Shown piece by piece: positions 616 to 21,570 of a stretch of 24,392 bases of DNA; the first letter of the stretch is position 1; each line of letters begins with the position of its first letter. A model generated the notes under the pieces. That model had not been told where the DNA came from. It saw nothing but the letters and a program-made list of their open reading frames with translations, and searched no databases. Made by a program: the position numbers and the translations under genes. Origin of the DNA: a virus; the IMG/VR virus record IMGVR_UViG_3300031722_000166, positions 1-24,392 of that record; one strand, 5' to 3'.

Positions 616-627
616 CTACGCGCACCC
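616..627 (-). promoter_or_regulatory. Recurrent 12-base element, copy 1 (upstream of tail fibre)
   Basis: Read on the minus strand this is GGGTGCGCGTAG. It directly abuts the TAA stop of the 2054-residue gene (628-630) and starts 60 bases upstream of the tail fibre ATG. The same 11-base core occurs at 9715-9726, 15093-15104 and 18940-18951, always in gaps between genes and always in this orientation. Role as promoter or operator is inferred. Confidence 0.55.
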
Positions 628-3600
628 TTACCGCTTCTTCTGGAATCCGAACACCGGAGCAAGCGGGTTGCTCGTCTCACCATCGGCGAGGGCCTTTACG
701 CCGGTGATCGTGCGGTTGATTTGCGCGCTCGGCAGACCCAGCGCGCTGCCCGCTACGTTGACGAGCGCCTTGCGCAGCGCGTCGTCAAATTCGCCCTGGT
801 GGATCTGCTTCGTTGCAGTTCCCGCGTCGGTGACGAGCCGCAGTCCTGCTGGCCCGGTATAGTCGCGTCCGAAGTCGTTCGCGCCGGCGATTGTCTTGCC
901 CGCTTCGGAGAATTCCCGAACGACGACCATCAGCCCCATCAGATAATCGATCTGGTTGGCCGCAAGTTTCCGTGCCAGCTTCTCGGGATCGTCGTCTCCC
1001 GAATCGCCGGGGGTTAGCGCGTTTTTCAGGAAGTAGCCGAGCACCGGTGGGACGATGTATAGCATCAGGTAATCGCTCGCGAGTTTGGCCTTCTTGGACG
1101 GTGTGTCGGCCACCATCGTCTGCGCGACGCCGAGATTTAGTGCTGTATTCATAAACGAGTAAAACACCGTAAAGAGCTTTTGCGCCGGCCCGCCGCGCTC
1201 CATCGCCGAGAGGTCTTTCGTCTGGCCGCCGCCTTGCGCGTCAATCACCGCCTGGTCGGCGAGGCTGATGGCGCGCTCTTCGTCGTTTCCTTCGGCGATG
1301 GCTTTCTCGTAGGCGCCGTGCCAGGTCGGCACATCGACGATCTGCTGGCAGCGCATCATCAAGGCGTAGGCGTATTGCCCGATCGCTTCCTTGATTGGCG
1401 TTTCGCCCTGCACCTTGTTGCGCAACTCGTTCAGTTCTCGGAAGCGCGTGCGCGCGCGGTTTTCCATGAAACTCGATTTGTCGTTGGTTTCGCGCGTCGC
1501 TTCCAACGGGTGTGCGAGGTATTTGGCAATGCCGCGCCCGATCCACGGTAGGCCGACGCGTACGATCGATTGCGTGAGGCCGAGTGGCTGCATCGCCGCG
1601 CTCATTACGTTGAAGCCAAGGCCAGAAATGCTGACGCCCTGGCGCAAGCGCGAGAGCGCTTGATCGACTGCGGCATCGCTGCCCTTGTCGCCTTCCGCAA
1701 TGTCCTGCGACCAGGTCTTAAATTGCTGCTTCACTTCGGGGCCATAGATGCTGCGGATCGCGCCGTCGATCGTCTTCGAGCGCAGCAGGCGATTCGTATC
1801 GATCAGCCACTCGTGCCAGGCGAGATCGTGGATCACGTCATTGACGCCTGAGTAGAGTCCCGACAGCGTATAGAGCAGCGGCCGGCCTTGCACCTCCTCG
1901 GCGCGCGACTTGGTGAAGCTGCGCCGCGTGGTAGCCGTAGTGTATGCGCCTTGCAGCTGCCGCTTCGCGCCTTCCGCATCAGCGTGTTCCTCGGCGCGCT
2001 GGCTCGCCGCCGGGTCATACTTAATCGGGTAATAGCCGCCGCGTAGGCCGAGCGCCGCCGAGATGGCCGAACCGGGCGTCACCCAATCCGGCTCCTTACC
2101 GTAGATGCGCTTTTGCTTCGCGGCGATCGCTGGCCGGTAGGTTTCAAAATGATCCCATACTGCCTGCACTGCTGCTTTTTCCACGGGCGTCAGCGATTGC
2201 AGCACGGGCAATATCTGCGCTTCCGTCCAGCCTTCGCCGCCGAGCAGTCGTTGCAAGTTGCCCTCGTTGCCGACGTTGAGCGCCAGCGCAATGCGCGCTT
2301 CGCGGTTCAGGCTGCGGCGGATGCTCGGAAAGAACTGCCCGCTGCCGCCCATCTTGCCGAGCGCGAACACGGGCGCCATGATCTTCGAGAGTGCCGCGGT
2401 CGCCTCGGCGCGCATCGTCGTTTCCACGTCGCCGCGCTCATTGGCCACGCGCACGAAGTATTCCCACATTGGCCCGCCGTCCTTCCCGCCGTCCATCACG
2501 CGCGCCCAGGTCGCGGCTTTGATATGTGAGGCCCAGAAGCGTTTGAGGCCCTGCACTGCGCGGCCCATGTTCGTCGTCGGCGTGCGCGTGTTCGCTTCAC
2601 GATCCTGCCCGTGCCGGGCAATGCTCTCGACAATCTCGTCGCGCACCGCTTCATAGGCGCGATTGTCCTTCGCCGTCAGCAGCTTGTGCTTCAAGCGGCC
2701 AAGGTGTTCGATCTGCTTGACGGTATCGACAACGCCACGGAATTCCTCAACGGTTAGATCCTTGTAGGACTTGCGGAACGCTTCATTGAGCAAGTCGGCC
2801 GGGATCTCGGGTTCGAGGCCCTGATCGCGCTGCGCATCAACCCACGCGGCGAGCGCTGTCATCTTGTCGACGCGCACGTTGCTCTTCTGTCGCAGGTCAA
2901 AGCGCGAGAGCAGGGCGTCGATCTGTTCAACGTATTCGGCGTCGAGGCCTTTGTTCGCGCCGTCGAACTTCTTGAGGTAGCGCAGCGCCTTCTCGACTTC
3001 ATCTTGCGCGTCGTAGGCGGCGCGCGTCGCATAATTGTTGATCAGCTGATTGCGCTTCTCGGCACCGGCAGTTTCAATATCACCCGCTTGACTTGCCTTT
3101 GCTGCCGCTCTACTGGCGCGCACTTCGGCGTTCGCGTACTGGCCGGGTTTGATCGCACGCACTTTGAGCCGGGCGACCATCGCGCTCGCGAACTCCTTTG
3201 CTGCACTGGCGAGGATCTTTGGCTTGCCGGTGGCTTTAGCTATGGCATTGGCTTCCGTCGCTACCATGCGCGCGCGCGCATCGTTGTGGATAGCCGCATC
3301 GGCTGCTTTCTCAATCTCGCGCTGGCTCGACAGGTCGCCATACTGTTCGAGCATGCGCTGATCGGTCAGGCCCTCGATCGCGTCGTTCGGCTTGTCGGCC
3401 GTTGCAAGCGTGCGCAGGAGTTCGTCGCCTGAGCTGAAGCCGAACATGCCGGCGACCAGATCCGGGTGCAGGGCATCGCGCTTGACCATGCGCAACGCAT
3501 CGAGGCGCGCGGCGACTTCGGGTGGTAGATCCATGGCTTCGACGCTGGCACGATCGAGGCGGCCGTGCGCCATTTGCCGAATACCGTCGAACTCGACAAC

Positions 3601-6600
3601 GCTCTCAGCCGTGTCTTTATCCCTTCCCGTCAGGTATTCCCACGCCTGATATATCGGCTGGCTCATGATCTCTCGCTTGGCGTCCATGCGTACTTCCGCA
3701 CGTCGCGCATCCGATTCCTTCTGCAGCTTCTTTATCATCCGGCCGCGCGCGTTGTGCAGCCATTGCATATCACGCAGCCCGCGCGCCTGCAGTTCCTCGA
3801 TCGCCCTATTTGTCGCATCGACGCCGAGCGATTGGTAGGTGGCAAAGTCCTCGGGCGTCATGCCAGCCTGATCGGCGCGCTCGAAGAGCGGCACCATGCT
3901 GCGCCCTTGTTCGGCAAGCTGGATCTGCTCGGTGGTCGCCAGCATGCGGTCGAAGACGCCGCGCACTTCGTCGTTCAGTTCGACGTTAAGGTTCTTGAGG
4001 TCACGATAGACGTTCAACAGCCAGGCGCGGAATCGCTGGAATACGCCGTGCAGTTCAATGCTTGGTGCCTTGCCCTCGAACAGGTAGGACTCGAAACCAC
4101 GGGCAAATTGCTCGTGATATCCGCGCTTTTCCTCGAAGCTGAGATTATTCCACTCGGTGAGACCCTTGACGCCGAACCAGGCGAGTAGCGCGTTGTGATC
4201 GTCGAGGATCTGCTGCTCGCCGGCCGACAGCAGATCGGCACCGTGGATCTCGGCATCCTGCGCCAGGGTATTCGCGAGATCCGTCTGCACTTCAAGGAAG
4301 AAATGCCCCGATTCGTGCAGGAAGGTCGAAAGGTCGGCGTTCTTGAGCAGGGCGATCGTGTTCGTCGCCGGATTGAAGCTGCCGCGTGTGCCGCCCTTAT
4401 CCTGAAAGAAGATTGCGGTGCCGTAGTCGCCAAGGGCACCGAGCGCGCCGGTTGCGCGCGACCAGTAAAGGCCGGCGTAATCTTCGCCGCGCCACTCGCG
4501 GACGCGCGCATGCACGTCGGCGAGCAGCGGCATGACTTGCTGAATCGGTAGGTTACCGCCGGTCGCCGCGGTTAATGCAGTCCATCCCGCAGTTTCCTGC
4601 CCGCCAGCTTTCGCCTTCTCGGCCCAGCCGCGCTTCTGAAATTCTTGAAAGATCGGCTCGTCGAGCGTTGGGCCATTGACCGACAGTTCGCCGTCGGGCA
4701 TGACGGTGAAGGTGAGCGCCGGTTCGGCCAGCAGGCCGGCCTCGATCTGCTCTTTACCGTAAATCTTTATCTTGAGGGTTCCGCCCGGGTTGTAAAACTC
4801 GTCGGGCGCGAGGATGTCAGCGGTTACGCGGTAGCCTGAGAAGTGCCCCAAGGGGCTGTCAACTTCGCGAGTTCTTTCTGCTTGTCCGTCGAGTTGAGTG
4901 GTGATTGCTTCGGACGTTGCGCGTATTCTTTTAAGTAGCCGGGTTGAACGGGGATAACGGTTTCCCGCAGGTGCATCGGATAGGAATTTAGCCTCGGCAT
5001 CATTGATCTCCTGCTCCGACTGTTGCGGAGCCTTAATGTTGATTGTATCCGCTTCGTTGAATTGCGCAAGCAGATCCTCAGGGGTTTGCCGCGTTGCCTG
5101 GTCGAATTGCGCCCCGTTCGCGCGCTCGGCGATCACGCGCAGGGTATGCGCCTTGAAGAACTCCATCGGCGTCATACCGAGCTTGGCTGCCATAACGGAA
5201 GCGAAAGCCTTATGCAGCAAGGCGTCTGTGCGATTAACCGATTCGGTGAAACGCCCGGCCTTTTGCAGTTCGCCGAATACCGCATCCTCGACTTCCTGTG
5301 CTGACGCCTTCCACGCTTCGTCGGCCGACTGTTCGCCAAGAACTCGATCAACTTCTGCCTGCAGCGCGGGCGCTTTCTCCTGCATGTAGGTCTGCGCCTC
5401 GGCCCGGGTGAAGCCTTCGGGGTCGAATTTCAAATGGTCGACAAGCTCGGGCGCGATCGTTGTTGGCGCGATGTTCGCCGCGTACTCGCCGATCGGGATG
5501 CGCACGTCACCGCCAGTGTCGAGCGCTGCCTGAAACTGCTCGGCAACCGTGGGAGAGAGCGCGGCAACTTGCTCGGCGAGGCCAGACTGCTGCAAGGTCT
5601 GTGCGCTGATAAACACAGCATCGGGCGCCGGGCCGTTGTCGGCGACCGCCTTCACGTGCTGCTCGAAGGTTTCCGCGTCGCGCGCGAGCACCTTGCTTGC
5701 AGCCGCCGTTTCATTGATCTTGGCTAGCAGGTCGGCCGTCTGGTTCGCCGTTTCAACTTTGATGTCGTTGCGCGTGGCGACGATCTCGACGCCCTTCATC
5801 AGTGCGACTTGTCCGCCGCCGCCGAATGCCGTAGCAAGGGCCGTTTGCACCGCAGCACCGGGGCGCGCTTTAAGGTAATCGCCGATCGTCTTTTCGGGGT
5901 TGAGCGTCGCCCACTCGTTGAGGTCCTGCAAGTGCGTCGCGATCTGCTCGCCGCCTTGCTCCTTGATCATGTACCCGCCGGCTTTTTTGAGGAAACCGCC
6001 GGGTTTTAGGAGGCTGAATAGCGCTGGCATACCGATCATCTCAGTGCCGGCTTCGATCACGCCTTGCGACGCGCCAAAGGCCAGCGCCTGTGGCACGGGC
6101 ACACTCTTGTCGCGCGCCTCGCCGTAGGCGCTACCACCAGTCGATGCGCCCATACCGGCTAGCATCGGCATCATACTGCCGCCGCTGGCGAGCGCAGCGG
6201 GGAGGAGAATTGCGTTAAGGCCGAGCGACTGCATGCCTGAATACCAGGATGATTCGATCAACCCCTCGGCTTTGGGCATCAAGCTGTCCGCCGTCGCGCG
6301 CGACACGCCACCCATGCGTGCGAAATAATCTGCGATCGGCTTTCTGCCCAGCACCTCGGGGATAAATGTTTCTGCGCCGGCACGCGCAATGCCCCACATA
6401 CCTTCGTTGAACTTGGGCACCGCCGACGCGATAGCCCTGCCGGTGCCAACTTCGAACTTGCCGAGCGAGTAGAGCAGATCCTCGACGCCGGTTAGGTTGC
6501 CGACGTCATCGTGCGCGATCTTTGCCTTATCGACATTGGCAAGCAGAACGGCGGTTACCGGGCTCGTGCGCGCCAGGTTGTCGAAGTTGATCTCGCCCAT

Positions 6601-9008: not shown

Positions 9009-9012
9009 AGGG

Positions 9013-9672
9013 TTAGAACCTTATTCCGTTGCCGAGATCGCTCGATGCGTAACCCGGCGTAGTGTTTGCGCCAATCGCGCCCGTGCTCGGTGTGTTGTTG
9101 ACCGCGCCGGCCTTGTCCATCATGTACCAGGACTGCGCGACCTTGCCGGCGCCGCTGAGTAGCGACGTGCCAGCAGCCGACAAGGGCGAAATACCATCAG
9201 CGGTTGCGTTCTTAATCAGCGCCGAATTGCTGGCGCTCACCGACTCGTTTCTCGCATTCAATGCCTGAATTTTGTAGCCCCAGGCGCTGCGCACTGCATT
9301 CGCGGTGATCTGGTTGCTGTCGATCTCCTTCATGATGTCGGTCGAGGCTTGCACCTCCGCTGCATTACCTACGCCGAGGTCTATGCCATTGGCGGCCATA
9401 CTAGCGCGCTGACTCGACTTCATCATGCCGGCCTTCATCGTCAGTCGGCCGACTTCTTTCTGGCCCGACATCAGCGTTGATTGCGCGCCTAGTTCGGCGA
9501 TCCGTGCGTTTGTGTCGGCTATTCGCGCGTTTGTGTCGGCCATCTCCGATTGAAACTTAAGAGACGACTTCTGTGCGCTGGCTGAAAAGAAGCTGCCGAT
9601 GATTGACGACAGCGCGCCAGCTCCTTGCATGTAGAGCGAACCAGCCGCTGCGGACGATGGATCAAATGCCAT
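9013..9672 (-). CDS. Small internal virion protein (T7 gp14-like role)
   Basis: The protein has 219 residues. It starts with a Gly/Ala/Ser-rich hydrophobic stretch (about 8-32, ALSSIIGSFFSASAQ), then a helical coiled-coil-like part (about 36-130) containing a tandem ADTNARI ADTNARI repeat at 45-58. A Gly/Ser-rich tail follows. Small proteins of this make-up sit between the tail tube gene and the transglycosylase gene in many podoviruses and act as the membrane-associated ejection protein. That role is inferred from position and composition, as sequence similarity to T7 gp14 is not evident by eye. The start is well supported by AAGGAG with 7-base spacing. A copy of the recurrent 12-base element lies just upstream, at 9715-9726. 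Confidence 0.8.
   Translation of the reverse strand: MAFDPSSAAAGSLYMQGAGALSSIIGSFFSASAQKSSLKFQSEMADTNARIADTNARIAELGAQSTLMSGQKEVGRLTMKAGMMKSSQRASMAANGIDLGVGNAAEVQASTDIMKEIDSNQITANAVRSAWGYKIQALNARNESVSASNSALIKNATADGISPLSAAGTSLLSGAGKVAQSWYMMDKAGAVNNTPSTGAIGANTTPGYASSDLGNGIRF
9499..9540. repeat. Tandem 21-base repeat in the small internal virion gene
   Basis: Two adjacent 21-base units at 9499-9519 and 9520-9540 differ at three positions and encode ADTNARI twice. Because the unit is seven codons it fits a heptad in a coiled coil. It looks like a recent in-frame duplication. Confidence 0.8.
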
Positions 9673-9714
9673 GTGCTAACTCCTTCGGCTAGAACGTATC
9701 TCGCCGTCCGCGCT

Positions 9715-9726
9715 CTACGCGCACCC
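9715..9726 (-). promoter_or_regulatory. Recurrent 12-base element, copy 2 (upstream of ejection genes)
   Basis: On the minus strand this reads GGGTGCGCGTAG, one base after the TAA stop of the gp12-like gene and 54 bases before the ATG of the small internal virion gene. It lies in the only real gap between the tail tube and ejection genes. It could give the three ejection genes their own promoter; this is inferred from recurrence and placement. Confidence 0.55.
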
Positions 9727-9727: not shown

Positions 9728-11770
9728 TTACGCCAGCGCGACTTCGGCAGTAAGCGAAACGAGCGTCAAGGGCAGCGGGTCTGATTGCCTGACAAATAGT
9801 TGTCCGCTGGCGCCCCAAGACGGCGCCAGATCGATTTCTATCTCGTCGGTCTTCAAGGCGGGAGGCGCGCCGTAATTCTCGGTCGTGCGCTGTTTGGCCT
9901 CGGTCAGGTGCGCCGCATCGGGTCCGGCGAAGATTCCCGATGATTTGAAGACGCGCAGCCAGAGCTTATTGACATTCTTCATGTGGCCCTGTGCAAAGCT
10001 GCCGTCGCGCAACTGCATCGACACGGGCAGCGTCTGCACATCTGCCTCGATCGGCAGGCCGACATGCGCGATGCTCGCCTCTTGGTCGAGCGTGATCTGC
10101 CCGCCGGTTACGACGCGCGGCGGATGCACAGCACCATCAGCCAGGATGCTTACCGTCTTTCCCTCGAGGTGCGACAGGCCGGAGATAGTCATCGTCGGCG
10201 CGCCGTTGTACGTCAGGCCGCAATCGACAAAGAAGGCGTCGGCAGGATTGACGAACTGGCGCGAGTGCTGCCGCTCGATGTATCGCTTGCTCGCACCGTT
10301 TATCGTGCGCTGGATGACGGCATACAGCACATCCTCAGCGCCTTCTGCGACAACAGTGCAGGACTCGAAAACCCCTGCGGTGTCGTGTTGGTGCCAGGCG
10401 CCGATTTGCTGCTCTGGCACGTAGGTTATGCCGAGCAGCTTGCCGCTCGTGCTAACGAACCATGCGAGCGGTGTCGGCGCCTTGGCGTAGCACATGTCGG
10501 CGATGTCGTAGGTATCGAAAAGGTGCGAGGCGCGCAGCGAAAGGTCGCCCGTCACGAAGCCGTTCGCCTGCCAGTTATAGGCCAATTCACGAACATGGCC
10601 GCCGCGCGCCGAGCCATAGAGCAGCGTGTTGTTGACAATTATCGGCTGCACGTTGCTCGCGCCAATATACGATTGTGGCTTGACTGAGATCGTGCTCGGG
10701 GTTATTGCGTCGCTGTTGATCGATGTGACGCGCCACTCGGCAGCGCTCGTCAGGATCAGCAATTGCGACAGCGGCACGATATGGCGAATCGTGTTCGCCT
10801 CGCGCGCAGCGACGCGGAAGCTGATGCGGTCATCGTCACGGATAGGCAGCGAGTAGGACATCGATGATTCGGTGCCGCTGCGCGTTGCCCAAAAGTTGGC
10901 CGGCTTATTTAGGGTGCCGGCGAAGGTGCGGCGCTGCTCGAAGTAAGAAACTGCCGCTGGGTAATCCCCCGCAGCGGCGAAGACGGTTTCGTAGATCGGC
11001 GGCACTTTCGACAGATCCGGTTCGATGTTGTCGTCCTTGATAGACAAACCGCTCGTCTGCCCGATATAGCCGTAAAGCCCCCCTTGCAGTTTATAGACGC
11101 TGTAGCGCACGGCACCGGTCACAGCGGCCCAGGCGATTGTGTTGTAATTGCCCGTCGTGAAAACATTGCCCGTGCAGGTCGCTGCTGCTGACGCCGCAGA
11201 TTCGGATACTTCGTCCGAAGCGATTGAAGTAACGACATAGGAATAGGCAAGCGTGCCGGCGCCGGTGGGGGTCGCAGTCGGCGCCGTCGGTGCAGCAATC
11301 GGGGATGCAAACGAAACCGTCGTCAGCGTCCAATTCGTCGCCCCGATCCGGCGCAACTCGCGCGGCGCATAGCTCGGGTGCGTAAGCGTCAGCACGTCGG
11401 CCGACTGCACGTAGTGGATGTCAAACAGATCCGCTTCGGCATAGGGATTGGTGATCTCGTATGGCACGCCCCCACTGAGCAGTGTTGCGCCCAGCGTGTG
11501 AAAACGAATATATCCAGCGCCGAGTTCGATTACCATTGTTTGCGTCGTCGAATAGGTGAAGGGGATCAGGCGCGTTTTCTTTGTCGAATCCTTGACCTCG
11601 CGTACGAACTCAAACCCTGCGCGATTCTCTGCAGGGCCTTGCGGCGTCGGGATGAAGTTGCGACATAGCGCGAGGCCGCTTTGGTACTTGGCATCGTCAA
11701 AGCGCCCGAACATAAGCGGCGAGACTTCTCCCCCGCCAAAAGACTTTTGCGGCAGCTTGACGTTTGCCAT
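9728..11770 (-). CDS. Tail tubular protein B-like (T7 gp12-like) tail protein
   Basis: The protein has 680 residues. The N-terminus, MANVKLPQKSFGGGEVSPLMFGRFDDAKY, followed by GLALCRNFIPTPQGPAENRAGF and then IPFTYSTTQTMVIELGAGYIRF, is the common start of the large podovirus nozzle or tail tubular B protein family. An Ig/fibronectin-like insertion with APTAPTATPTG and YSVYKLQGG lies at about 170-250. The remainder is beta-rich and includes ERQHSRQF. This protein forms the distal tube of the short tail through which DNA leaves. Its ATG overlaps the stop of the adaptor gene by one base (TGATG), so the two are probably translated together, as expected for adjacent rings of the same tail. Family assignment is confident; the insertion is a by-eye call. 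Confidence 0.9.
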   Translation of the reverse strand: MANVKLPQKSFGGGEVSPLMFGRFDDAKYQSGLALCRNFIPTPQGPAENRAGFEFVREVKDSTKKTRLIPFTYSTTQTMVIELGAGYIRFHTLGATLLSGGVPYEITNPYAEADLFDIHYVQSADVLTLTHPSYAPRELRRIGATNWTLTTVSFASPIAAPTAPTATPTGAGTLAYSYVVTSIASDEVSESAASAAATCTGNVFTTGNYNTIAWAAVTGAVRYSVYKLQGGLYGYIGQTSGLSIKDDNIEPDLSKVPPIYETVFAAAGDYPAAVSYFEQRRTFAGTLNKPANFWATRSGTESSMSYSLPIRDDDRISFRVAAREANTIRHIVPLSQLLILTSAAEWRVTSINSDAITPSTISVKPQSYIGASNVQPIIVNNTLLYGSARGGHVRELAYNWQANGFVTGDLSLRASHLFDTYDIADMCYAKAPTPLAWFVSTSGKLLGITYVPEQQIGAWHQHDTAGVFESCTVVAEGAEDVLYAVIQRTINGASKRYIERQHSRQFVNPADAFFVDCGLTYNGAPTMTISGLSHLEGKTVSILADGAVHPPRVVTGGQITLDQEASIAHVGLPIEADVQTLPVSMQLRDGSFAQGHMKNVNKLWLRVFKSSGIFAGPDAAHLTEAKQRTTENYGAPPALKTDEIEIDLAPSWGASGQLFVRQSDPLPLTLVSLTAEVALA

Positions 11771-13081: not shown

Positions 13082-13101
13082 GATTGATGGTTCCTTTCGA
13101 A

Positions 13102-14121: not shown

Positions 14122-14133
14122 GGTGGTGCTCCT

Positions 14134-14760
14134 TTACGGATTCATATTTGGGTACATACGTTGCGCCACGGTCGGCGGAGTTGCCCCGCTGGCAGTGCGC
14201 CCGGGCGTGAAGCTGTCTTCACTGATTGCTTTGCCGGCCCGGTAGAACATCCGAATGACTTCGGGATGATTGCCAAGGCCGGTTTGGTCGAGCAGCGCCC
14301 GCAGTTCAGGAGACGCGAATGCATCACGGGCTTTGAAAGCGACGGCAAGGTTTTCCTGCAGCTTGTCGCCGCCGAATTCTTTGTCCGTCTTAGAGTCGCT
14401 CTCCCATTGCGCCGTCGCTTGCGCAACCACTTCGGCTTGATGCGCGGCAATTGCCGGTTGCATCTTGTCGAGGAGTTTTTGCGCTTTGTCCTGCGGTAGA
14501 TCCAGCTCTTTCGCCACTTCGGAATAGGCGCCCACGACTGATGCGTCGAGCGTTACCCCTTCGGGTGCGACGAACTCGTACTTCTCAGGCGCGCCTGTTG
14601 GGGCCGCCGTGGTTTCGGTGCTTGTCGTATCCGCAGCGATTTCAGTGCTGGTTGCTGCAGTTTGGCTGGCCGTATCCGCAGCAGTAGCGGTCGTGCTTGC
14701 CGTGGTCGACGTGGCGCTGTCAGTGGTATTGGTCGCGTCAGTCTGGTTTTCGGTTGTCAT
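14134..14760 (-). CDS. Capsid scaffolding protein
   Basis: The protein has 208 residues. Residues 1 to about 55 are almost entirely Thr, Ser, Ala and Asp (TTENQTDATNTTDSATSTT and similar). Residues 60-208 are helical and acidic, including KYEFVAPEGVTLDASVV and an EVAKELDLPQDKAQKLLDKM segment. Acidic, helical proteins immediately upstream of the capsid gene are scaffolds that guide procapsid assembly and then leave. No serine protease motif is visible, so a fused protease is unlikely. The start overlaps the Bbp19-like gene by 23 bases and has AGAGG upstream. The low-complexity N-terminus is unusual in its length and Thr content. Confidence 0.87.
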   Translation of the reverse strand: MTTENQTDATNTTDSATSTTASTTATAADTASQTAATSTEIAADTTSTETTAAPTGAPEKYEFVAPEGVTLDASVVGAYSEVAKELDLPQDKAQKLLDKMQPAIAAHQAEVVAQATAQWESDSKTDKEFGGDKLQENLAVAFKARDAFASPELRALLDQTGLGNHPEVIRMFYRAGKAISEDSFTPGRTASGATPPTVAQRMYPNMNP

Positions 14761-15064
14761 GTAGCGCCTCTTTGAGCATCACGGAATACAACTCAGGGCA
14801 GAGCGTGTGGATCTTTTCCAGAGTCTTGAACCCTTCGGTCTTTTGCCCGTCCGCGAACGCCATGCTCATCGCGTTGGTGTTGAACGAAGGATGAAAAACC
14901 CGGGCGCGCTCCAGAAGACGCCAAACAATGCGGCGCCCCCGCTTACTGCCCATGAGCCACTTGAAATCCGACTCGTCGGTATCGCGAGCGAGCTTCTGGC
15001 GCTGCGCTGTTTCTGCACGCACTTGCTCTTGGCTCGTCAGATCGTCGGTGTCGTTCGTGTTCAT
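14738..15064 (-). CDS. Bbp19-like phage protein
   Basis: The protein has 108 residues. After a charged N-terminus (1-32) comes DFKWLMGSKRGRRIVWRLLERARVF, then FNTNAMSMAFADGQKTEGFKTLEKIH and CPELYSVMLKEAL, the conserved core of the family named after BPP-1 gene Bbp19. The molecular role is not established; position upstream of scaffold and capsid suggests a part in head assembly. The start region is odd. No Shine-Dalgarno sequence is visible, and a 7-bp hairpin ends one base-step before the ATG. The first 40 bases of leader closely match the leader of the acetyltransferase gene 3.8 kb away. A strong terminator lies just upstream, so this gene must begin a new transcript or depend on read-through. 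Confidence 0.87.
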   Translation of the reverse strand: MNTNDTDDLTSQEQVRAETAQRQKLARDTDESDFKWLMGSKRGRRIVWRLLERARVFHPSFNTNAMSMAFADGQKTEGFKTLEKIHTLCPELYSVMLKEALHDNRKPD

Positions 15065-15083
15065 GCCCGCAATCTATGCGGGC
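15065..15083 (-). promoter_or_regulatory. Hairpin abutting the Bbp19-like start codon
   Basis: On the minus strand GCCCGCA, loop TAGAT and TGCGGGC form a perfect 7-bp stem whose last base directly precedes the ATG at 15064. It occupies the place where a ribosome binding site should be. A 23-base block covering most of it and the first codons (15059-15081) is repeated exactly at 18906-18928 before the acetyltransferase gene. Translational control is inferred. Confidence 0.6.
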
Positions 15084-15092
15084 GCAAAACAG

Positions 15093-15104
15093 GTACGCGC
15101 ACCC
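15093..15104 (-). promoter_or_regulatory. Recurrent 12-base element, copy 3 (start of capsid block)
   Basis: On the minus strand this reads GGGTGCGCGTAC and starts 40 bases before the Bbp19-like ATG. It follows the T-tract of the terminator at 15106-15131 almost at once. A terminator followed by this element and then a gene start is the best positional argument that the element begins transcription. The inner bases GTGCGCGTAC form an imperfect dyad, so binding of a dimeric regulator is an alternative. Confidence 0.6.
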
Positions 15105-15105
15105 C

Positions 15106-15131
15106 AAAAGAAAAGCCGCCCGAAGGCGGCT
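15106..15131 (-). terminator. Intrinsic terminator after head decoration gene
   Basis: On the minus strand AGCCGCC, loop TTCG and GGCGGCT form a perfect 7-bp stem with a stable tetraloop, followed by TTTTCTTTT. It starts about 22 bases after the stop of the head decoration gene. It separates the portal block from the capsid block. Confidence 0.92.
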
Positions 15132-15152
15132 CACGCTGCGCTACTCTTGCGG

Positions 15153-15632: not shown

Positions 15633-15643
15633 GGTCTGCTCCT

Positions 15644-15979: not shown

Positions 15980-15993
15980 GGCCATGCTCCTTT

Positions 15994-17661
15994 TTAGCTG
16001 TAACCGCTGAACGCGCGGGTCGCGTCAGTCAGCGCACTTTGCTTGCTGGTGTCTATGCCGCCTAGGTTCTTTGCCGTCTGCGACGCCTGCGCTGCTTGCT
16101 CCTGCTGCGCCATCGCCTGCTGTGCTTCAGCGCGCTGCTTACGGATAAGCACGACCTTGTCACTCGGAACAATCAATTCGGGATCGACACCAAGCATGTC
16201 GGCATACGTGTCGGCCCACTTGTCAGCATCGAATTTATCGAGCACTTCAGGCTTGGCACCGGCTATAGCGCCTAGGTTATTGACGAAACGATCGATGCCA
16301 TTGGTCGCGACCGCGCGCTGCGCCTGTGCCAGCATGCTGACGAATTCGACGTTGAGCTCACGGCCTTGCAATTCTTCTGGCGCGGACGGAACGATGCCCG
16401 CCTCCACCATGCGCGCGAAGGTCATTTCAATCTTCGGCGACAGGATCTCGTTATGCAGGCGCTCAAGCACCGGGCCGATCATCAAGAGCTTTTCTTCGTG
16501 CCGCTCGGCGACTTCGGTCGCCGTCAGGCCGTTCTTGTCGGCGCTGCTGATCATCAGGAACATGTCAGTGTAGAAAGCGCCGCGTATGCGTTCGCGCACG
16601 TCGCGGATGTCTTCGAGCAGATGCGACAGGTCGAGATTTACTTCGAATGCCATACGAATGCCGCCGCTTTGACCGACCTGATCGACGTATGAGACACCGC
16701 CAGGCAGCAGATCGATGTCGTGTCCTTTGGCCGAACTTGGCGCTTGTACGGGCGGCTTTGTCTTGTAGTCGATGCCCTGGGCCTTGCGCAGCTGCTCATG
16801 TTGCAGCTGCTTGATGTCGCCGAGCGCTTCCATGCCCGGCGAATTGCCGTAGATGTCGCCGCCCGACACGGCCCAGCGCGGGCAGAGCGCGACGAACTCC
16901 TTGAAGCCCGAGTCGCGCAGTAAGTTATCGTTGTCGCCACCTTGCTCGAAATAGGCCGACTGCCATGCCATGTTCTTCGCATCGCGCTTCGTTACATCGC
17001 GGTCGGCGCGCGGCTCTATGGCCTGGCTGACCGGCACCCAAGCATCGAGCTGCCCGCGCATGTACATCGCGCGCACTGTGCGGCTTACCTTGTAGATGCC
17101 AAAGTCGCGCACCATCGCCGCGACGCTCATTTCGTACTCGCGATAAAGCGTATTGACGACGCCGCGGTGGTCGGTCGCTATGCAGTATTCACCGGCTGTT
17201 AGCGGGTAGTGCCTGATCACGTCCTGAAAGTCGGGCAGGATGATTGTCGCTGCCGTACCGAAGGCGCCTAGTTCCTCGTAGATCGAGTGCAGCGACCCGT
17301 ACGAATTGGACTTCGTGAAGACCATCTGCATCAGGCGCGTAACCTCGGCTAGCCATACCTTGACTGCGCCGGATTCGTCGAGCTTGGGGTCGGATGTCGT
17401 CAGGCGAAACCAAGGGCGCGCCGGCGAGGTGGCGCCCGACATCAGACCGGCGCCGAGCGTGCGTAGCGCACGTGTGCCTGTGCTGTCGTAAATTTTGTTG
17501 TGTCGACGTGCACCGCGGTTGCGATCGCTGACGAAGAAACGCCCCGAGCGGGGCAGGATGTTGTCACTGATCTCCCGCCAGTGAGATACCCAGCTTGCCC
17601 GCTCCGAGACGAGACTGCCCATGCGGGCCGTGAGCAATTGCCGGCGGGTGTAATCCGCCAT
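15994..17661 (-). CDS. Portal protein (T7-like head-tail connector)
   Basis: The protein has 555 residues. The N-terminal helix (1-50, RASWVSHWREISDNILPRSGRF) is followed by SGATSPARPWFRL at 75-87, the signature of podovirus portals. Further motifs are LGAFGTAATIILPD, EYCIATDHRGVVNTLYREYEMS and a late GLTATEVAERHEEKLLMIGPV segment forming the wing and crown. The C-terminal 55 residues are Gln/Ala-rich and probably coiled. Twelve copies form the ring at one capsid vertex, through which terminase packs DNA and to which the adaptor binds. The ATG lies one base after the stop of the 111-residue gene. No good Shine-Dalgarno sequence is visible, so translation is probably coupled. The length is typical for the family. 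Confidence 0.97.
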   Translation of the reverse strand: MADYTRRQLLTARMGSLVSERASWVSHWREISDNILPRSGRFFVSDRNRGARRHNKIYDSTGTRALRTLGAGLMSGATSPARPWFRLTTSDPKLDESGAVKVWLAEVTRLMQMVFTKSNSYGSLHSIYEELGAFGTAATIILPDFQDVIRHYPLTAGEYCIATDHRGVVNTLYREYEMSVAAMVRDFGIYKVSRTVRAMYMRGQLDAWVPVSQAIEPRADRDVTKRDAKNMAWQSAYFEQGGDNDNLLRDSGFKEFVALCPRWAVSGGDIYGNSPGMEALGDIKQLQHEQLRKAQGIDYKTKPPVQAPSSAKGHDIDLLPGGVSYVDQVGQSGGIRMAFEVNLDLSHLLEDIRDVRERIRGAFYTDMFLMISSADKNGLTATEVAERHEEKLLMIGPVLERLHNEILSPKIEMTFARMVEAGIVPSAPEELQGRELNVEFVSMLAQAQRAVATNGIDRFVNNLGAIAGAKPEVLDKFDADKWADTYADMLGVDPELIVPSDKVVLIRKQRAEAQQAMAQQEQAAQASQTAKNLGGIDTSKQSALTDATRAFSGYS

Positions 17662-17662
17662 G

Positions 17663-17998
17663 CTAGCCGCCGAGCAACGTGGTCTTGCCCAGCGCTAGCG
17701 CGTTCGGATCGACGCCTTGCGCGCCCGTCAGCATCGTGCCTGACACACCAGACTTTCCAGCCTGTGCTGCGGCATCGAGCAGCGCCATTGTATCAGGCTG
17801 CTTCTGGTTGGCCTTGTTCATGTCCTGATCGGCCTGCGCTGCCGCTTGGTCGGCCTGCGAGGCCGCTTTGTTGGCTGCCTCTTTCGCTTGGTTTTGTGAG
17901 GCGGTTTGTGCCTTCTTGGCGTCTGCGCCGTTTTTGGCTGATATTGCCACGCTTGCAACTGCAGCGACGGCCATGACGATAGCGGTTGCTCCTGACAT
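17663..17998 (-). CDS. Small Ala-rich phage protein with N-terminal membrane segment
   Basis: The protein has 111 residues. Residues 4-20 (ATAIVMAVAAVASVAIS) form one hydrophobic helix. They are followed by a helical Ala/Gln/Lys/Asp-rich stretch (about 22-65) and a Gly-rich C-terminus ending ALALGKTTLLGG. Similar small proteins occur between terminase and portal genes in podoviruses, and their C-terminal GKTTLLG-type ending is familiar, but I know no established function. A minor virion or ejection-associated protein is possible. GGGGAG lies 5 bases before the ATG and overlaps the stop of the cupin-like gene. The gene joins directly to portal, so they belong to one transcript. Confidence 0.75.
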   Translation of the reverse strand: MSGATAIVMAVAAVASVAISAKNGADAKKAQTASQNQAKEAANKAASQADQAAAQADQDMNKANQKQPDTMALLDAAAQAGKSGVSGTMLTGAQGVDPNALALGKTTLLGG

Positions 17999-18000
17999 AG

Positions 18001-18465
18001 CTACTCCCCTGTCACGACGACAATGTCGTCTTCGGTTTGCGCGCGAGAAAGCAGCAAATGCCCCTCGTCGGTGAATTCGGATTCGGCTTGCTCGACGGTC
18101 AGCGCATCGGTCTTGAAGCTCATCGTCAGATAGGTGTCGGCGTGCGCGCGAAAGGCCTGCTTGCGGCCCGCACTGGCGGGGATGAGGTGATAGCCCTGCA
18201 GGTGGATGTCATCGCCGCCTGTGAAGATCGTCACGTCGCCGCTGATGGAGAGGGTTGTTGCGATCTTGATCAGCGCGCCAGTTAGGATGGCCCCAGCGGG
18301 GATGCGGATCGTCCGCGAGTAGATGCCACCATGGAAAAGATGCGCGGTGCGCGTCGGCACTTGGGGTAACTGGCGCAGCCTGGCCTCGCCTAAGCGGACC
18401 AGGTCAAGCACGTCCTTTGCCATAGCGGGCAGGTGCGGCGCGGCCGTGACGAGCGCGGCGGTCAT
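18001..18465 (-). CDS. Cupin-like phage structural protein, function unknown
   Basis: The protein has 154 residues. After a helical start (1-40) the sequence is beta-rich: HLFHGGIYSRTIRIPAGAI, ALIKIATTLSISGDVTIFTG, YHLIPASAGRKQAFRAHADT and LTMSFKTD. Alternating strands with a Pro-Ala-Gly turn resemble a double-stranded beta helix (cupin). A single His-rich metal site is not clearly conserved, so enzymatic activity cannot be claimed. Comparable proteins are found upstream of portal in several podoviruses. The ATG is preceded by CGGAGG at 5 bases and overlaps the acetyltransferase stop by 4 bases (ATGA), so the two products are made in linked amounts and may work together. Confidence 0.72.
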   Translation of the reverse strand: MTAALVTAAPHLPAMAKDVLDLVRLGEARLRQLPQVPTRTAHLFHGGIYSRTIRIPAGAILTGALIKIATTLSISGDVTIFTGGDDIHLQGYHLIPASAGRKQAFRAHADTYLTMSFKTDALTVEQAESEFTDEGHLLLSRAQTEDDIVVVTGE

Positions 18466-18911
18466 GTGAGCCTCCGAAAGAAGACGCTGTTCGTCTGCCG
18501 ATAGGGCTGGCGCGACATGACGTATTCGAGCTTGCTGCCGGCGGGCGCTGTGACAAACAGGCCTTCAGCCCCGAGCGGGGCCGCAAGCGCTTCGGCTTCA
18601 CGCAGCAGGGCTAGGCCCGCGCCGCTTTGGCGACGCGCGCTCGCAACGAAAAACGATTCGGTTGTCGCGATGCGCTTGCCGTAGTGCGGCAGCGTCGAGA
18701 CGACGAAAAGGAGAAAGCCGATCAGCGTGTCGCCCTGGTAGGCCGCGGCGGTATGCAGCGCGCCACTCGCTTCCATCGCCCGGTAAAGGTCAAGCTGCGC
18801 CTCGGCTTCGCCCAGGCCGGCAATAGCCGACTCGGCGCCGTACTCTGCAAGCAGTGCGGCGAGATTGGGCGCGCGTTCGATGTCCGCGACAGTGCAGGGC
18901 GAAATGTTCAT
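18462..18911 (-). CDS. GNAT-family N-acetyltransferase
   Basis: The protein has 149 residues. GDTLIGFLLF (60-69) and TESFFVASARRQSGAGLAL (84-102) are the central GNAT strands and the acetyl-CoA pyrophosphate loop, with the R/Q-x-x-G-x-G pattern at about 94-99. LLREAEALAAPLGAEGLFVTAPAG and YRQTNSVFFRRL complete the fold. The substrate is unknown. Such genes recur in this position in BPP-1-like phages, where they may modify a phage or host protein. The start is odd: no Shine-Dalgarno sequence is seen and a hairpin lies directly before the ATG. The leader copies that of the Bbp19-like gene. The gene begins a new minus-strand segment after the plus-strand lipoprotein gene. Confidence 0.88.
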   Translation of the reverse strand: MNISPCTVADIERAPNLAALLAEYGAESAIAGLGEAEAQLDLYRAMEASGALHTAAAYQGDTLIGFLLFVVSTLPHYGKRIATTESFFVASARRQSGAGLALLREAEALAAPLGAEGLFVTAPAGSKLEYVMSRQPYRQTNSVFFRRLT

Positions 18912-18931
18912 GCCCGCAATCTATGCGCGGG
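18912..18931 (-). promoter_or_regulatory. Hairpin abutting the acetyltransferase start codon
   Basis: On the minus strand CCCGC and GCGGG pair around a 9-base loop, ending one base before the ATG at 18911. A 23-base block covering the loop, one arm and the first codons is identical to that before the Bbp19-like gene. The stem here is shorter (5 bp against 7 bp) because of one changed base next to the block. Confidence 0.5.
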
Positions 18932-18934
18932 TAT

Positions 18935-18963
18935 TTCTAGTACGCGCACCCTGAGGCTATACT
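18935..18963 (+). promoter_or_regulatory. Possible sigma70-type promoter of the lipoprotein gene
   Basis: TATACT at 18958-18963 matches five of six bases of the -10 consensus. A 17-base spacer puts the -35 at TTCTAG (18935-18940), which is a poor match. The lipoprotein ATG lies 27 bases downstream of the -10. The gene needs its own promoter because all neighbours are on the other strand. The spacer contains copy 4 of the recurrent element. Confidence 0.4.
18940..18951 (-). promoter_or_regulatory. Recurrent 12-base element, copy 4 (upstream of acetyltransferase)
   Basis: On the minus strand this reads GGGTGCGCGTAC and starts exactly 40 bases before the acetyltransferase ATG, the same distance as for the Bbp19-like gene. 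The minus strand is non-coding across the adjacent lipoprotein gene, so a fresh transcription start here would be useful. The element also sits inside the spacer of a possible plus-strand promoter. Confidence 0.58.
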
Positions 18964-18989
18964 GAGCGCTTCAACGCAAGGAGACGATC

Positions 18990-19214
18990 ATGAAAACAAT
19001 CGCATTGGTCACCACTGTCGTGCTGCTCACTGGCTGCGCTTCAGCGAATAGTTACTCGCGCATCGCGGTGCTGCAGAATCCCGAGAGCAAGCAGACTGTC
19101 GAGTGCAGATTCCCCGAGGTAGCGTCTGTTCGCATGAGCAGCCACATCGATACCTGCGTTGCCACCTACGAAAAGGCTGGCTATAAGCTCGTCGCCGACT
19201 CGGCGCGGCCCTAA
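18990..19214 (+). CDS. Small phage lipoprotein on the opposite strand
   Basis: The protein has 74 residues. Residues 1-15 are a signal peptide (MKTIALVTTVVLLTG) ending in lipobox L-T-G-C with Cys16 as the lipidation site. The +2 residue is Ala, so outer-membrane sorting is expected in Gram-negative cells. The mature part has NPESKQTVECR, two cysteines at 39 and 56 that could form a disulfide, and AGYKLVADS. Small lipoproteins with this NP-x-TVEC and AGY pattern are common in proteobacteria and their phages. AAGGAG lies 6 bases before the ATG. It is the only plus-strand gene, and its end overlaps the terminase end by 4 bases. It looks like an independently expressed moron. A role in blocking superinfection, as for the T5 lipoprotein, is possible but not shown. 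Confidence 0.85.
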   Translation: MKTIALVTTVVLLTGCASANSYSRIAVLQNPESKQTVECRFPEVASVRMSSHIDTCVATYEKAGYKLVADSARP

Positions 19215-20788
19215 GCGTAAGGGTCGTGCTCGCGCTTCTTGCGCCCGCCGCCCATCGCCGCAACGGTTCGACGCTTCGGCGTGTCAATCAACGCCAGGAC
19301 GTAGGCGCTGCCAAAGTCAGGCGAGCGGCCGATCTTCTCGATGATCTCGTCGCGGCTTGCGACGTAGATCGTTGATCCTGTCAGGCGCCACGTTGGGGCG
19401 CAGAGATCGGCCAGCAGACGCGGATCTGGCGGCAGCGCAATCCCCGTGTTTGCCGTCGGGTCGAGCGCTTCGCGGAACTGCCACCAGAGTTGCGAGCGCT
19501 GGTTCTTGAAGCGCAGCCGGCCTGACTTGTCTGTCGCAGTCGGCGCTTCCGAGACATTTACGCCTACGACCTGCTGCTCGGCATCGCGCAAGAAGTCGTA
19601 GGGCGATGACCCGACGCCAATCACGTCGATGTGCATCACCGCCTCGTCGCGGCGCGCGGCGATCGCAAGGCCAGCAACGGTCGGGCCGTCTGGCGTTGCT
19701 TTGCCCGGGTAGGTCAGCGGCTCATCGAACCACATGCCATGCCGACGTGCGAGAATCGTCTGGTCCTTGCCACCACGCGCCACGTCGACGCCGAGCGAAT
19801 CCATCGGCGCAAGCTTATCTGGCTTCTTCCAGCGCGCCTGCGCAGCTTCGACCCATGCGGTCGGGATGACTTGCATCGCGTCGTCCTCGACGCCAGCGGC
19901 GAAGTCGCCATTGAGCATTTGGCTGCGCAGAGGTTCGGGCAATGCTTGAAGTTGTGCCATGTATCCAGTCCCCAGGAGGTGCGGATTGTCGGTGATGCGC
20001 GACGGAATGAAGGTGCGCGAGAGTGGCGTGATGATCTCTACGGCGCTGTAATCCTTCGCATCGAACTCGTAGCAGGGCTCGCCGTCGACTAGCACAAAAG
20101 GTCGGCCGTCTTTTACCCACAAGTCGCGCCCATTTGGGCTGTGGCCATCGGCAGGGAGTGACGCGGCATAGCGCAGCTCGCCCGGCTTCGCGGGGTTTGG
20201 GAACTTGCGATCAAGCCAGGGCGCGAAGAACGCGATCACCCAGCGTCCCTCAGCACTCTGCGGCGGGTTGAACGTGAATAGCGCCTGACAGTGCTGGCCA
20301 GAGATCGTCGTGCGCAGCCAGCCGAGGAGGAAGCGCACCTGGCTCGCGAGGAAGTTCGTTGCCTCGTCGAACACGAGCAGATCATGCGGCCGTCCTTGGA
20401 ACTTTTTCTCATCGCCCGCATTGGGCACGGCGCCAAGCTCAATCTGCATGTTGGGCAAGCGCCAGATATTGTCCTTGCCGTTGAAGCCATCGCGCGTGCC
20501 GAGCAAATCCTCGAGACGGTCTATGATGCCGGTTAGCTCAGTACCTACGCGCCGCAGGATCATCGTCTTGCGGTGCTGCGTCAGCGACTTGCCGCAGGCA
20601 AGATCCGTCTTGCCCCCGCCTGCCGCTCCGCCATAGCCGATGATGTCGGCCTTCGAGTTATAGGCCATTAGTTGCGGCCCGGGGAGTGGCCGCCAAACAG
20701 CCTTGTCTGCTTGCAATATCGCGTAGAGCTCGGTTTTCTCGGCTTCCGTGAGGTAAGGCAGCAGGCCTTGAATGTCTGATGCGTCCAT
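19211..20788 (-). CDS. terL: Terminase large subunit
   Basis: The protein has 525 residues. The ATPase domain has Walker A GGAAGGGKT (53-61) and Walker B LLVFDEA (137-143) with the catalytic glutamate E142, followed by a TFNPP coupling motif. The RuvC-like nuclease domain has LGVDVARGGKDQT with an acidic residue near 335, MHIDVIGVG with D near 388, and PDFGSAYVLA with D near 491. The enzyme pumps DNA into the procapsid through the portal and cuts the concatemer. All motifs are intact. The ATG lies 4 bases after the small-subunit stop with no close Shine-Dalgarno sequence, so translation is probably coupled. The last bases overlap the convergent lipoprotein gene. Confidence 0.97.
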   Translation of the reverse strand: MDASDIQGLLPYLTEAEKTELYAILQADKAVWRPLPGPQLMAYNSKADIIGYGGAAGGGKTDLACGKSLTQHRKTMILRRVGTELTGIIDRLEDLLGTRDGFNGKDNIWRLPNMQIELGAVPNAGDEKKFQGRPHDLLVFDEATNFLASQVRFLLGWLRTTISGQHCQALFTFNPPQSAEGRWVIAFFAPWLDRKFPNPAKPGELRYAASLPADGHSPNGRDLWVKDGRPFVLVDGEPCYEFDAKDYSAVEIITPLSRTFIPSRITDNPHLLGTGYMAQLQALPEPLRSQMLNGDFAAGVEDDAMQVIPTAWVEAAQARWKKPDKLAPMDSLGVDVARGGKDQTILARRHGMWFDEPLTYPGKATPDGPTVAGLAIAARRDEAVMHIDVIGVGSSPYDFLRDAEQQVVGVNVSEAPTATDKSGRLRFKNQRSQLWWQFREALDPTANTGIALPPDPRLLADLCAPTWRLTGSTIYVASRDEIIEKIGRSPDFGSAYVLALIDTPKRRTVAAMGGGRKKREHDPYA

Positions 20789-20792
20789 CGCG

Positions 20793-21311
20793 CTAGACGA
20801 GGTCGGCGCCCGGGTTGTTCTCCTCGGCGTCCTTACGCGCCTGCGCCGTGGCGAGGATCGCGGCGAGCTTCGCCGCTACGGCCGAATCGCTCTGCGGCGC
20901 CAGCGTGCCGTCAGGGTTCGACAACTCGAGCGCCTGGCGCTCTCCGTACTTGGCTGGCGCCCACTTCGCAAGGAGCTTAAGCCGAGTATCTGCGCGCAGC
21001 CGAGAGCGTTGCACGCACTCGCCATTTACCATCCAGCCGATATTATCGCCGTCTTTGTTGGTTCGCTCCATCCAGTCGTTTTGCCCATCGTCGACGACGT
21101 TGAGCAGATCCTCCGCAATCGCATCGAAGCCTAGTTCCCGCGCATGCGCGATGCGTGTGGCAAAATCTTTATCTTCGTTGATCCAGTCATAAACCGTGCG
21201 CCACGCTGGCATGTGCTCGTCGCGGCAGATTGCGCGCAAAGTCTCACCGTTTGCTATACGTGCGCAAATCTCGTCAAGAACTTCAGCAGTGCGAATTGAA
21301 AGGCGTCCCAT
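20793..21311 (-). CDS. terS: Terminase small subunit (Sf6-like type)
   Basis: The protein has 172 residues starting MGRLSIRTAEVLDEICARIANGETL. The N-terminal helix-turn-helix (about 8-45, ETLRAICRDEHMPAWRTVYDWI) recognises the packaging site. The middle (about 50-125) is the helical oligomerisation region (ARELGFDAIAEDLL, RSRLRADTRLKLLAKWAPAKYGER). The C-terminal tail, Ala/Glu-rich, would contact the large subunit. The frame is open up to 21548, but the extension overlaps another gene and lacks family resemblance. ATG 21311 lies one base after that gene's stop. A near-copy of the recurrent 12-base element is 42 bases upstream. The adjacent hexamer cluster (21624-21733) could be its DNA target. 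Confidence 0.93.
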   Translation of the reverse strand: MGRLSIRTAEVLDEICARIANGETLRAICRDEHMPAWRTVYDWINEDKDFATRIAHARELGFDAIAEDLLNVVDDGQNDWMERTNKDGDNIGWMVNGECVQRSRLRADTRLKLLAKWAPAKYGERQALELSNPDGTLAPQSDSAVAAKLAAILATAQARKDAEENNPGADLV

Positions 21312-21312
21312 G

Positions 21313-21570
21313 TCAGGAATTCTCGCCCAGTGCTTCGTCCGGTACGCGCACCACGCGAAACGCCACCACGGTGCCGCAGCGCCGACGTCCTGCGCAAATG
21401 TCCCGAACGCTTCGCCGACTGATCTCGAAGACTTGCGACAAGCGCGTATACCCCCAGCCTTCTTCCCGCAGTTCAAGCAATCGATCAACGTCATGATTGC
21501 TGAGTTTTGCGTGCGGATGATCTTCGCCGATACGCAACCCATTTTCACCGATAGCTACGATTTTTTGCAC
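21313..21570 (-). CDS. Small helix-turn-helix (resolvase-like) DNA-binding protein
   Basis: The protein has 85 residues. Residues 23-64 contain LSNHDVDRLLELREEGWGYTRLSQVFEISRRSVRDICAGRRR, which reads as a resolvase or Hin-type helix-turn-helix with a basic end. Small proteins of this type are common directly before terminase genes in podoviruses. The start is GTG at 21570, chosen because AAGGAGAG lies 5 bases upstream; no ATG is available nearby. It could be a transcription regulator of the late genes or an accessory packaging protein. It is the first recognisable protein after the hexamer cluster, so it may bind there. Function is inferred from the motif and location. Confidence 0.8.
   Translation of the reverse strand: MQKIVAIGENGLRIGEDHPHAKLSNHDVDRLLELREEGWGYTRLSQVFEISRRSVRDICAGRRRCGTVVAFRVVRVPDEALGENS
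21342..21353 (-). promoter_or_regulatory. Near-copy of the recurrent 12-base element, before terminase
   Basis: On the minus strand this reads TGGTGCGCGTAC, one mismatch from copies 3 and 4. It starts 42 bases before the terminase small subunit ATG, close to the 40-base spacing of those copies. Unlike the others it lies inside a coding region, where it encodes part of VVRVP, so chance is a real possibility. Confidence 0.3.

Follow-up and report, generated by a model that had tools for sequence, protein, structure and literature searches.

A Phage-Specific Box in the −35 Position of Candidate Late Promoters of BPP-1-Like Phages, and the Small Helix-Turn-Helix Protein That Probably Reads It

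The DNA analysed here, positions 1 to 24,392 of the IMG/VR virus record IMGVR_UViG_3300031722_000166 (24,392 nucleotides, called the window), carries an 11 bp box repeated in front of several genes. Judging from its sequence, the window is the late region of a BPP-1-like podovirus transcribed on the minus strand, since its large terminase (TerL) is 64–69% identical to those of BPP-1, zth2-2 and DC33. Very probably, the boxes belong to late promoters of the host sigma70 polymerase, with an 85-amino-acid (aa) helix-turn-helix (HTH) protein of the phage as the activator bound in place of the −35 element. The comparison of sequences covered promoter anatomy, conservation, strand bias, the association of the HTH gene with the boxes, covariation and out-of-sample prediction. 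What it adds is a probable identity for the late activator, together with a two-residue code linking the protein to its box.

Results

Promoter Anatomy in the Window

Four exact copies of the box and one with a single mismatch were found on the minus strand before start codons (Table 1), in agreement with a preliminary description of this DNA. At sites 1–5, the 5′ end of the box preceded the ATG by 60, 54, 40, 40 and 42 nucleotides (nt). Box 1 lay directly after a stop codon and box 2 one base after another, so that the reported abutment on stop codons was correct to within one base, and the intrinsic terminator described ahead of box 3 was recovered as a predicted stem. Leaders with a Shine–Dalgarno-like AGGAG were visible at sites 1 and 2. 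At sites 3 and 4, where the ATG follows the −10 by 6 nt, a start at the usual distance would fall on the A of the ATG; the mRNAs of the Bbp19-like and GNAT acetyltransferase genes are predicted to be leaderless in the window.

A TAnnnT sequence was located exactly 17 nt 3′ of each of the four exact boxes. This −10 played no part in finding the boxes of the window, unlike in the search of relatives described below. An 11-mer present at least four times on one strand is not rare in such GC-rich DNA (53 of 300 dinucleotide shuffles). The largest number of identical same-strand 11-mers each followed by N17-TAnnnT was one in 490 and two in 10 of 500 shuffles; the window has four. With this 17 nt spacing to a sigma70-type −10, the box occupies the place of the −35. 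A box scan allowing three mismatches gave seven matches in the window, the four sites and three others (two on the plus strand and one on the minus strand at spacer 18), and further single matches outside it in the loci L006, L007, L008 and L009.

Box Promoters across Relatives

A scan of IMG/VR for GGGTGCGCGTA-N17-TAnnnT returned 91 stretches; several contigs carried three or four matches, and some single matches resembled chance. In the consensus of 51 distinct sites, from loci chosen by eye as likely relatives, the box was followed by TC, and positions −1 and +1 were C and A, respectively. The box was nearly constant within one phage and different between phages. It was GGGTGCCCGTG in BPP-1, before bbp24, bbp19 and bbp9, and [AC]GGTACCCGTA in DC33 and zth2-2, with four copies in each. 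The box promoters of DC33 precede the same four genes as in the window, and those of BPP-1 three. As the four genes of DC33 are homologous to those of the window, the promoter keeps its genes while the box changes. The preliminary description had proposed a phage-specific late promoter, and the conservation at the same genes, the late strand and the specificity of the box to its phage all agree with this proposal.

A generic box pattern gave 51 late-strand matches in 86 related loci, many of them near-duplicates, none on the other strand and none when the pattern was reversed. Boxes were also searched de novo in 186 loci of at least 8 kb: an 11-mer had to recur with no more than one mismatch, and every copy had to have TAnnnT at a given distance downstream. 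Such pairs were found on the late strand in 92 loci at spacer 16 and 84 at spacer 17, compared with 19 and 26 on the other strand, neighbouring spacers corresponding to one box read in a shifted frame. The strands were alike at spacers 10 and 21–24, and the counts were 35 versus 27 at spacer 11. The cores included GTGCGC, GTGCCC, GTACCC, GTGCAC, GTACGC, GTTCGC, GTGTCC, GTAACC and GTTCAC.

The mechanism was examined on 107 sites from 44 phages, a set collected with the −10 among the search criteria, so that the −10 is not an independent finding there. With the start placed 7 nt after the −10, the box spans −40 to −30. Each promoter had a single box, both in the window and among the aligned sites of relatives, and the spacer between box and −10 was little conserved. 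No −35 was found at any of the 107 sites, the best match to TTGACA at 16–18 nt being three of six positions or fewer. The earlier remark that the copies do not look like sigma70 promoters holds for the −35 and fails for the −10, which is of the sigma70 type and present at 17 nt. The ATG was 5–8 nt after the −10 at 71 of the 107 sites (39 at 6 nt, 19 at 7 nt and 13 at 8 nt), so that the first genes of most late units are predicted to be leaderless or nearly so. We infer transcription starts at the conserved A, which would leave no leader, or almost none, at roughly two thirds of the sites.

In many relatives, not all, a box was present at the junction between the HTH gene and terS, the small terminase gene, several lying within the last codons of the HTH gene. 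This junction box spells V-R-V, V-P-V or V-H-V depending on the box type. It is followed by 17 nt, by TACCGT, TATCGT, GATACT or xxGAAT, and then by approximately 7 nt to the terS ATG. Site 5 of the window is probably a weaker member of the promoter set that would serve terS.

Two loci showed unusual arrangements. The locus L262 carried a pair of boxes separated by 49 nt (at 10930 and 10979 in the scanned stretch), one of its own type, GTGCAC, and one GTGCGC, which is possibly the trace of a specificity switch. Near position 10192 of L028, the sequence just upstream of the box resembled another −10 region, and a tandem promoter is possible.

Association of the Boxes with a Small HTH Protein

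All relatives in which repeated boxes were found also had a small HTH gene upstream of terS: such boxes were present in 80 of 107 HTH-positive and 0 of 50 HTH-negative loci, the box filter being identical for both. Among 121 loci with enough flank, 58 had the HTH gene and a box cluster, 20 the HTH gene only, 43 neither and none the box only; the corresponding numbers in 36 loci fetched later were 22, 7, 7 and 0. The HTH open reading frame (ORF) was located at most 2.5 kb upstream of terL in 115 of the 168 loci with that much flank. When upstream ORFs were clustered in 53 HTH-negative loci, no common alternative regulator stood out among the 12 families judged by eye.

The AlphaFold 2 model of the HTH protein showed three helices, with predicted local distance difference test (pLDDT) blocks of 82–89 for residues 31–60 and a mean of 64. 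Residues 56 and 57 (R56 and D57 in the window) fall in the predicted recognition helix, the third one (52–60). Fold matches were all weak (IstA, Hin, the Tn3 resolvase DNA-binding domain and the sigma4–DNA structure 3n97, with Z 5.8–6.5), and a fold Z below 8 may reflect only a shared helix arrangement. A Foldseek search with the model gave nothing at E 0.001. Among the matches listed for 60 family members, Sigma70_r4_2 appeared at E ≤ 0.01 in 11, the window protein not included, and PHROG 836, "late transcriptional activator", in 25, with a best E of 1.5e-5.

An operator for a dimeric activator had been suggested from an imperfect dyad in the box. A site for a phage activator is supported, as the box covaries with one HTH protein. 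The dyad is not a family feature, with a score over box positions 4–11 of 0.75 in the window versus a mean of 0.47 over 44 phages, and a dimer site based on it is not supported. The asymmetry of the boxes argues for a monomer.

Covariation and a Residue–Base Code

Covariation was measured with 300 shuffles on 44 phages, the set left after 71 had been made non-redundant at 85% HTH identity. Two loci were left out of this training set by hand: L178 (doubtful box; residues Q,S and bases A,G, which would fit) and L145 (no HTH in the flank). The strongest of all box–residue couplings was between box base 7 and HTH residue 57 (Z 14.7). Box base 5 was coupled to residue 56, the neighbour of 57, with Z 7.5. 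The best TerL columns (291) reached Z 3.6 for base 7 and 5.0 for base 5, and the control maxima for base 7 were 3.9 in TerS, 4.9 in the portal, 4.5 in the capsid, 5.0 in Bbp19, 5.1 in the tail, 4.2 in the primase and 4.1 in gp200. On the TerL tree, base 7 required at least 15 changes. In 20 path-disjoint pairs drawn from this tree, base 7 and residue 57 both differed in 11 and were both the same in 7; the residue alone differed in 2 and the box alone in none. The training counts, from residue 57 to base 7, were 18 of 18 G for Asp, 9 of 11 C for Lys and 5 of 5 A for Gly-Arg.

BPP-1 and the locus L267 form a natural experiment. The two are 95% identical in DNA across terL, the HTH types differ (AK and RD) and the boxes differ accordingly; the Bbp19 promoter is in the aligned stretch and the GNAT promoter in a stretch that does not align.

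A coupling between box base 9 and HTH residue 20 (Z 7.9) was dropped from the code: TerL columns reach Z 17.6 for this base, so that its signal reflects descent.

Some individual loci deserve mention. The HTH ORF of L114 and L115 has an insertion between helices, and the box, C[AG]GTCCGCTTA, is nevertheless consistent with the Asp–G pairing at base 7. The loci L161 and L440 have one recognition helix (RN) and different boxes, GTGCGC and GTGTAC, respectively; at its terS junction L161 additionally carries a GTGTAC box, which would fit boxes lagging behind a changed activator.

Out-of-Sample Prediction

The code was confronted with loci outside the training set in two tests. In the first and weaker one (12 held-out loci), base 7 was right at 11 of 17 sites (0.28 expected; p 0.0044), and base 5 at 14 of 19 sites, for which no shuffle was made. 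Among the misses, L125, L319 and L321 resemble chance sites, and L281 and L198 are real exceptions.

For the second test, the rule obtained from the 44 phages was written down first. Then 117 loci were fetched, 96 of them non-overlapping with the earlier ones, and boxes were determined de novo. This set held 16 new HTH types. The rule gave the correct base 7 in 12 of the 13 and the correct base 5 in 10 of the 12 for which it made a prediction; it made none on base 7 for L414, L423 and L431 and none on base 5 for L399, L423, L425 and L431. Shuffles averaged 4.6 right for base 7 and 4.1 for base 5, and none of 5,000 reached either observed value. Outside this headline count, base 7 was right in 8 of 10 near-training loci (misses L348 and L440) and in 3 of 5 duplicates (misses L401 and L434).

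Two further boxes were noted by eye and stand outside all counts: GGTGCGCATG-N17-GATACA before the Bbp19-like gene in SR18 (RD), and GTTCGC at the HTH–terS junction in L109 (HD).

Proposed Mechanism and Alternatives

We propose that host sigma70 would read the −10 (TAnnnT) and that the 11 bp box, at approximately −40 to −30, would stand in for the missing −35. The HTH protein encoded just upstream of terS would bind the box, probably as a monomer, its recognition-helix residues 56 and 57 setting box bases 5 and 7. Once made, it would recruit the polymerase to the GNAT, Bbp19-like, internal virion protein and tail genes, and probably also activate terS and terL. Specificity of the protein for the box is well supported by the comparison of sequences, the support for the code being firm at base 7 and fair at base 5. 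We further infer binding of the box by the protein, an activating instead of a repressing effect, and displacement of sigma region 4.

These elements can be joined in a wider reading, offered tentatively and rated as somewhat short of probable. The HTH protein would be a detachable substitute for sigma region 4 that reads the −35 while host sigma70 keeps the −10, each phage having a late-promoter set orthogonal to the others. Specificity would be set mainly by two adjacent residues and shifted by a coordinated change of the boxes, and most late units would start leaderless or nearly so. At position 57, Asp would read G, Lys C and Gly-Arg A at base 7; at position 56, Arg, Ala or Gly would go with G, Gln with A and His or Cys with T at base 5.

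Several observations weigh against these proposals. Most HTH-negative loci have a more divergent TerL, which confounds the association between HTH gene and box with descent, and 27 of the 107 HTH-positive loci had no box cluster, including L009 and four Acinetobacter prophages. The clusters tolerate one mismatch, two-copy clusters require GT or TA in the box and the filters require TAnnnT, so that the search criteria account in part for the −10, for the GT/TA bases and for the constancy within a phage. Site 5 of the window needs an 18 nt spacer and its −10 lacks TA. The coupling of base 5 to residue 56 is weaker than that of base 7: Z was 6.5–7.8 in six of seven control subsets versus control maxima of 3.1–6.1, and 4.9 versus 4.8 in the 20-member primase subset. 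Of the 20 tree pairs, 8 showed a different residue 56 together with the same base 5, and other HTH columns outranked residue 56 for this base. The HTH proteins of L172 and L177 have three residue differences in the compared stretch, including K/R at position 56; two shared promoters differ T/C at box base 6, not base 5, and the box at the terS junction, GGGTGCCTTTA, is identical in both. Exceptions to the code were L270 (AK with A), L189 (DK with A), L273 (AR with G), L281 (RK with A), L198 (RR with C) and L396 (WN), in addition to the near-training L348 and L440.

The HTH protein might instead be a repressor, the box being an operator over the −35 region that silences late genes. The −40 to −30 position is also one for a repressor, and covariation cannot separate activation from repression. 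This is unlikely, as promoters without a −35 should be weak unaided, and a gene upstream of terS, with a box at or in its 3′ end in many relatives, fits a factor made just before the late genes. It is more doubtful still that the box is read by something else, be it a regulator from the early region, an unknown sigma factor or the small terminase, with the HTH gene merely travelling along. TerS also binds DNA. Against this, no tested TerS, TerL, portal, capsid, Bbp19, tail, gp200 or primase column matches residue 57 for base 7, and in BPP-1 and L267 HTH type and boxes differ together despite the near-identity over terL.

A nuclease or packaging role of the sites is highly improbable. It is suggested by annotation: the family member of BPP-1, Bbp27 (NC_005357.1 26337-26573, L006), is named "endonuclease" in RefSeq, and among the matches listed for 60 members PHROG 6156 (endonuclease) appears for 49 and PHROG 20467 (HNH endonuclease) for 42. 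However, the proteins are approximately 80 aa long, Bbp27 itself (78 aa) being an HTH and little else, and residues 13–63 of the window protein align only to positions 176–226 of the 261-position PHROG 6156 profile. The endonuclease name may derive from similarity to part of phage endonuclease families. Moreover, the sites precede start codons at several genes with a fixed −10 spacing. Least probable of all is a promoter of a phage single-subunit RNA polymerase, an idea raised in the preliminary description and in keeping with a phage-specific repeated promoter on the late strand, as the box is parted from a sigma70-type −10 at fixed spacing by a little-conserved 17 nt spacer, and no such polymerase is among the annotated products of BPP-1, which has three such promoters, many products being hypothetical.

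Features and Neighbouring Genes of the Window

The coordinates are collected in Table 1. The product of the tail gene behind box 1 was 46% identical in aa to BPP-1 Bbp9 and 55% to a DC33 protein over its N-terminal part. A small ORF with a lipoprotein-like start (MKTIALVTTVVLLTGCA...) lies on the opposite strand between terL and box 4.

Table 1. Promoter elements and genes of the window.
Feature	Position	Strand	Remarks
Box 1, GGGTGCGCGTA	617..627	minus	candidate promoter of tail (bbp9-like) gene, ATG at 567
−10 TAGCCT, promoter 1	594..599	minus	17 nt spacer
Box 2, exact GGGTGCGCGTA	9716..9726	minus	candidate promoter of internal virion protein gene
−10 TACGTT, promoter 2	9693..9698	minus	17 nt spacer
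Box 3, exact GGGTGCGCGTA	15094..15104	minus	candidate promoter of Bbp19-like gene
−10 TAGATT, promoter 3	15071..15076	minus	6 nt 5′ of ATG
Box 4, exact GGGTGCGCGTA	18941..18951	minus	candidate promoter of GNAT acetyltransferase gene
−10 TAGATT, promoter 4	18918..18923	minus	6 nt 5′ of ATG
Box 5, TGGTGCGCGTA, one mismatch	21343..21353	minus	within 3′ end of HTH gene, encodes V-R-V
Possible −10 GAGAAT, promoter 5	21319..21324	minus	18 nt spacer; 17 nt in many relatives
Intrinsic-terminator-like stem	15113..15132	minus	immediately before box 3, predicted
Internal virion protein gene	9013-9672	minus	PHROG internal virion protein; DC33 homologue 45% aa
Bbp19-like gene	14738-15064	minus	Pfam Phage_Bbp19; DC33 homologue 55% aa
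GNAT acetyltransferase gene	18462-18911	minus	Pfam Acetyltransf_1; DC33 homologue only 31% aa
Small ORF	18990-19214	plus	lipoprotein-like start
terL, large terminase	19211..20788	minus	64% aa identity to BPP-1
terS, small terminase	20793..21311	minus	ATG at 21311
HTH protein, 85 aa	21313..21570	minus	proposed late activator, BPP-1 Bbp27 family; GTG start after AAGGAG

Two related phages call for comment. Limnohabitans phage DC33 (PQ492659.1, L005) is filed under Inoviridae despite its TerL and BPP-1-like late region, and this placement looks wrong. Pseudomonas phage UFJF_PfDIW6, found via a large window protein, has an annotated Q-like antiterminator (NC_070881.1 39318-39680, L329) and may have a different late control.

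Discussion

The BPP-1-like phages are a model group known for their diversity-generating retroelement. On their late promoters or late regulation nothing was found in the open-access literature searched, and passages of PMC3240598 and PMC11053796 do not mention the late promoters of the group. The present analysis names a candidate late regulator for these phages and suggests a new function for Bbp27. It makes the rewiring of multi-promoter phage regulons a question testable with natural variants. Proteobacterial phages are also predicted to have a large class of late mRNAs that lack a leader. A predictive residue–base code for a small HTH would also provide a supply of natural, probably orthogonal promoter/activator pairs.

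The closest known mechanism appears to be that of the T4 middle promoters, where, according to PMC6755090, MotA and AsiA appropriate sigma so that the host polymerase uses a sigma70 −10 with a phage box near −30 for the −35. The combination of a −10 and an activator box in place of the −35 is also seen here in the sequence. MotA has a double-wing domain and works with AsiA, whereas the protein described here is a small predicted three-helix HTH, its box varies from phage to phage with a residue code, and the genes are late, not middle. MotA was not among the fold matches listed for the HTH model, which says nothing either way.

By role, the closest systems appear to be the Ltr regulators of Gram-positive phages. 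The Ltr gene lies close to and upstream of the packaging genes, and the HTH gene here is also upstream of them. In PMC13123087, Ltrs are described as phage activators needed for packaging and structural genes, with target promoters that generally contain four imperfect repeats as binding sites. In the phages studied here, a single box is found at the −35 of several promoters along the late region. RinA, ArpU and LtrC were not among the best 25 of 37 Pfam families for 60 HTH members, and the other family listings, of up to 25 families each, likewise gave no link to the Ltrs.

Mu C and P2 Ogr are likewise small phage proteins activating late promoters of the host polymerase, but they bind further upstream. 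The T7-type single-subunit promoters are continuous over approximately 20 bp reaching the start site, unlike the little-conserved spacer and separate TAnnnT seen here. With resolvase/Hin-type and sigma region 4 HTH domains, the protein would share, as far as the weak fold matches indicate, its predicted three-helix HTH.

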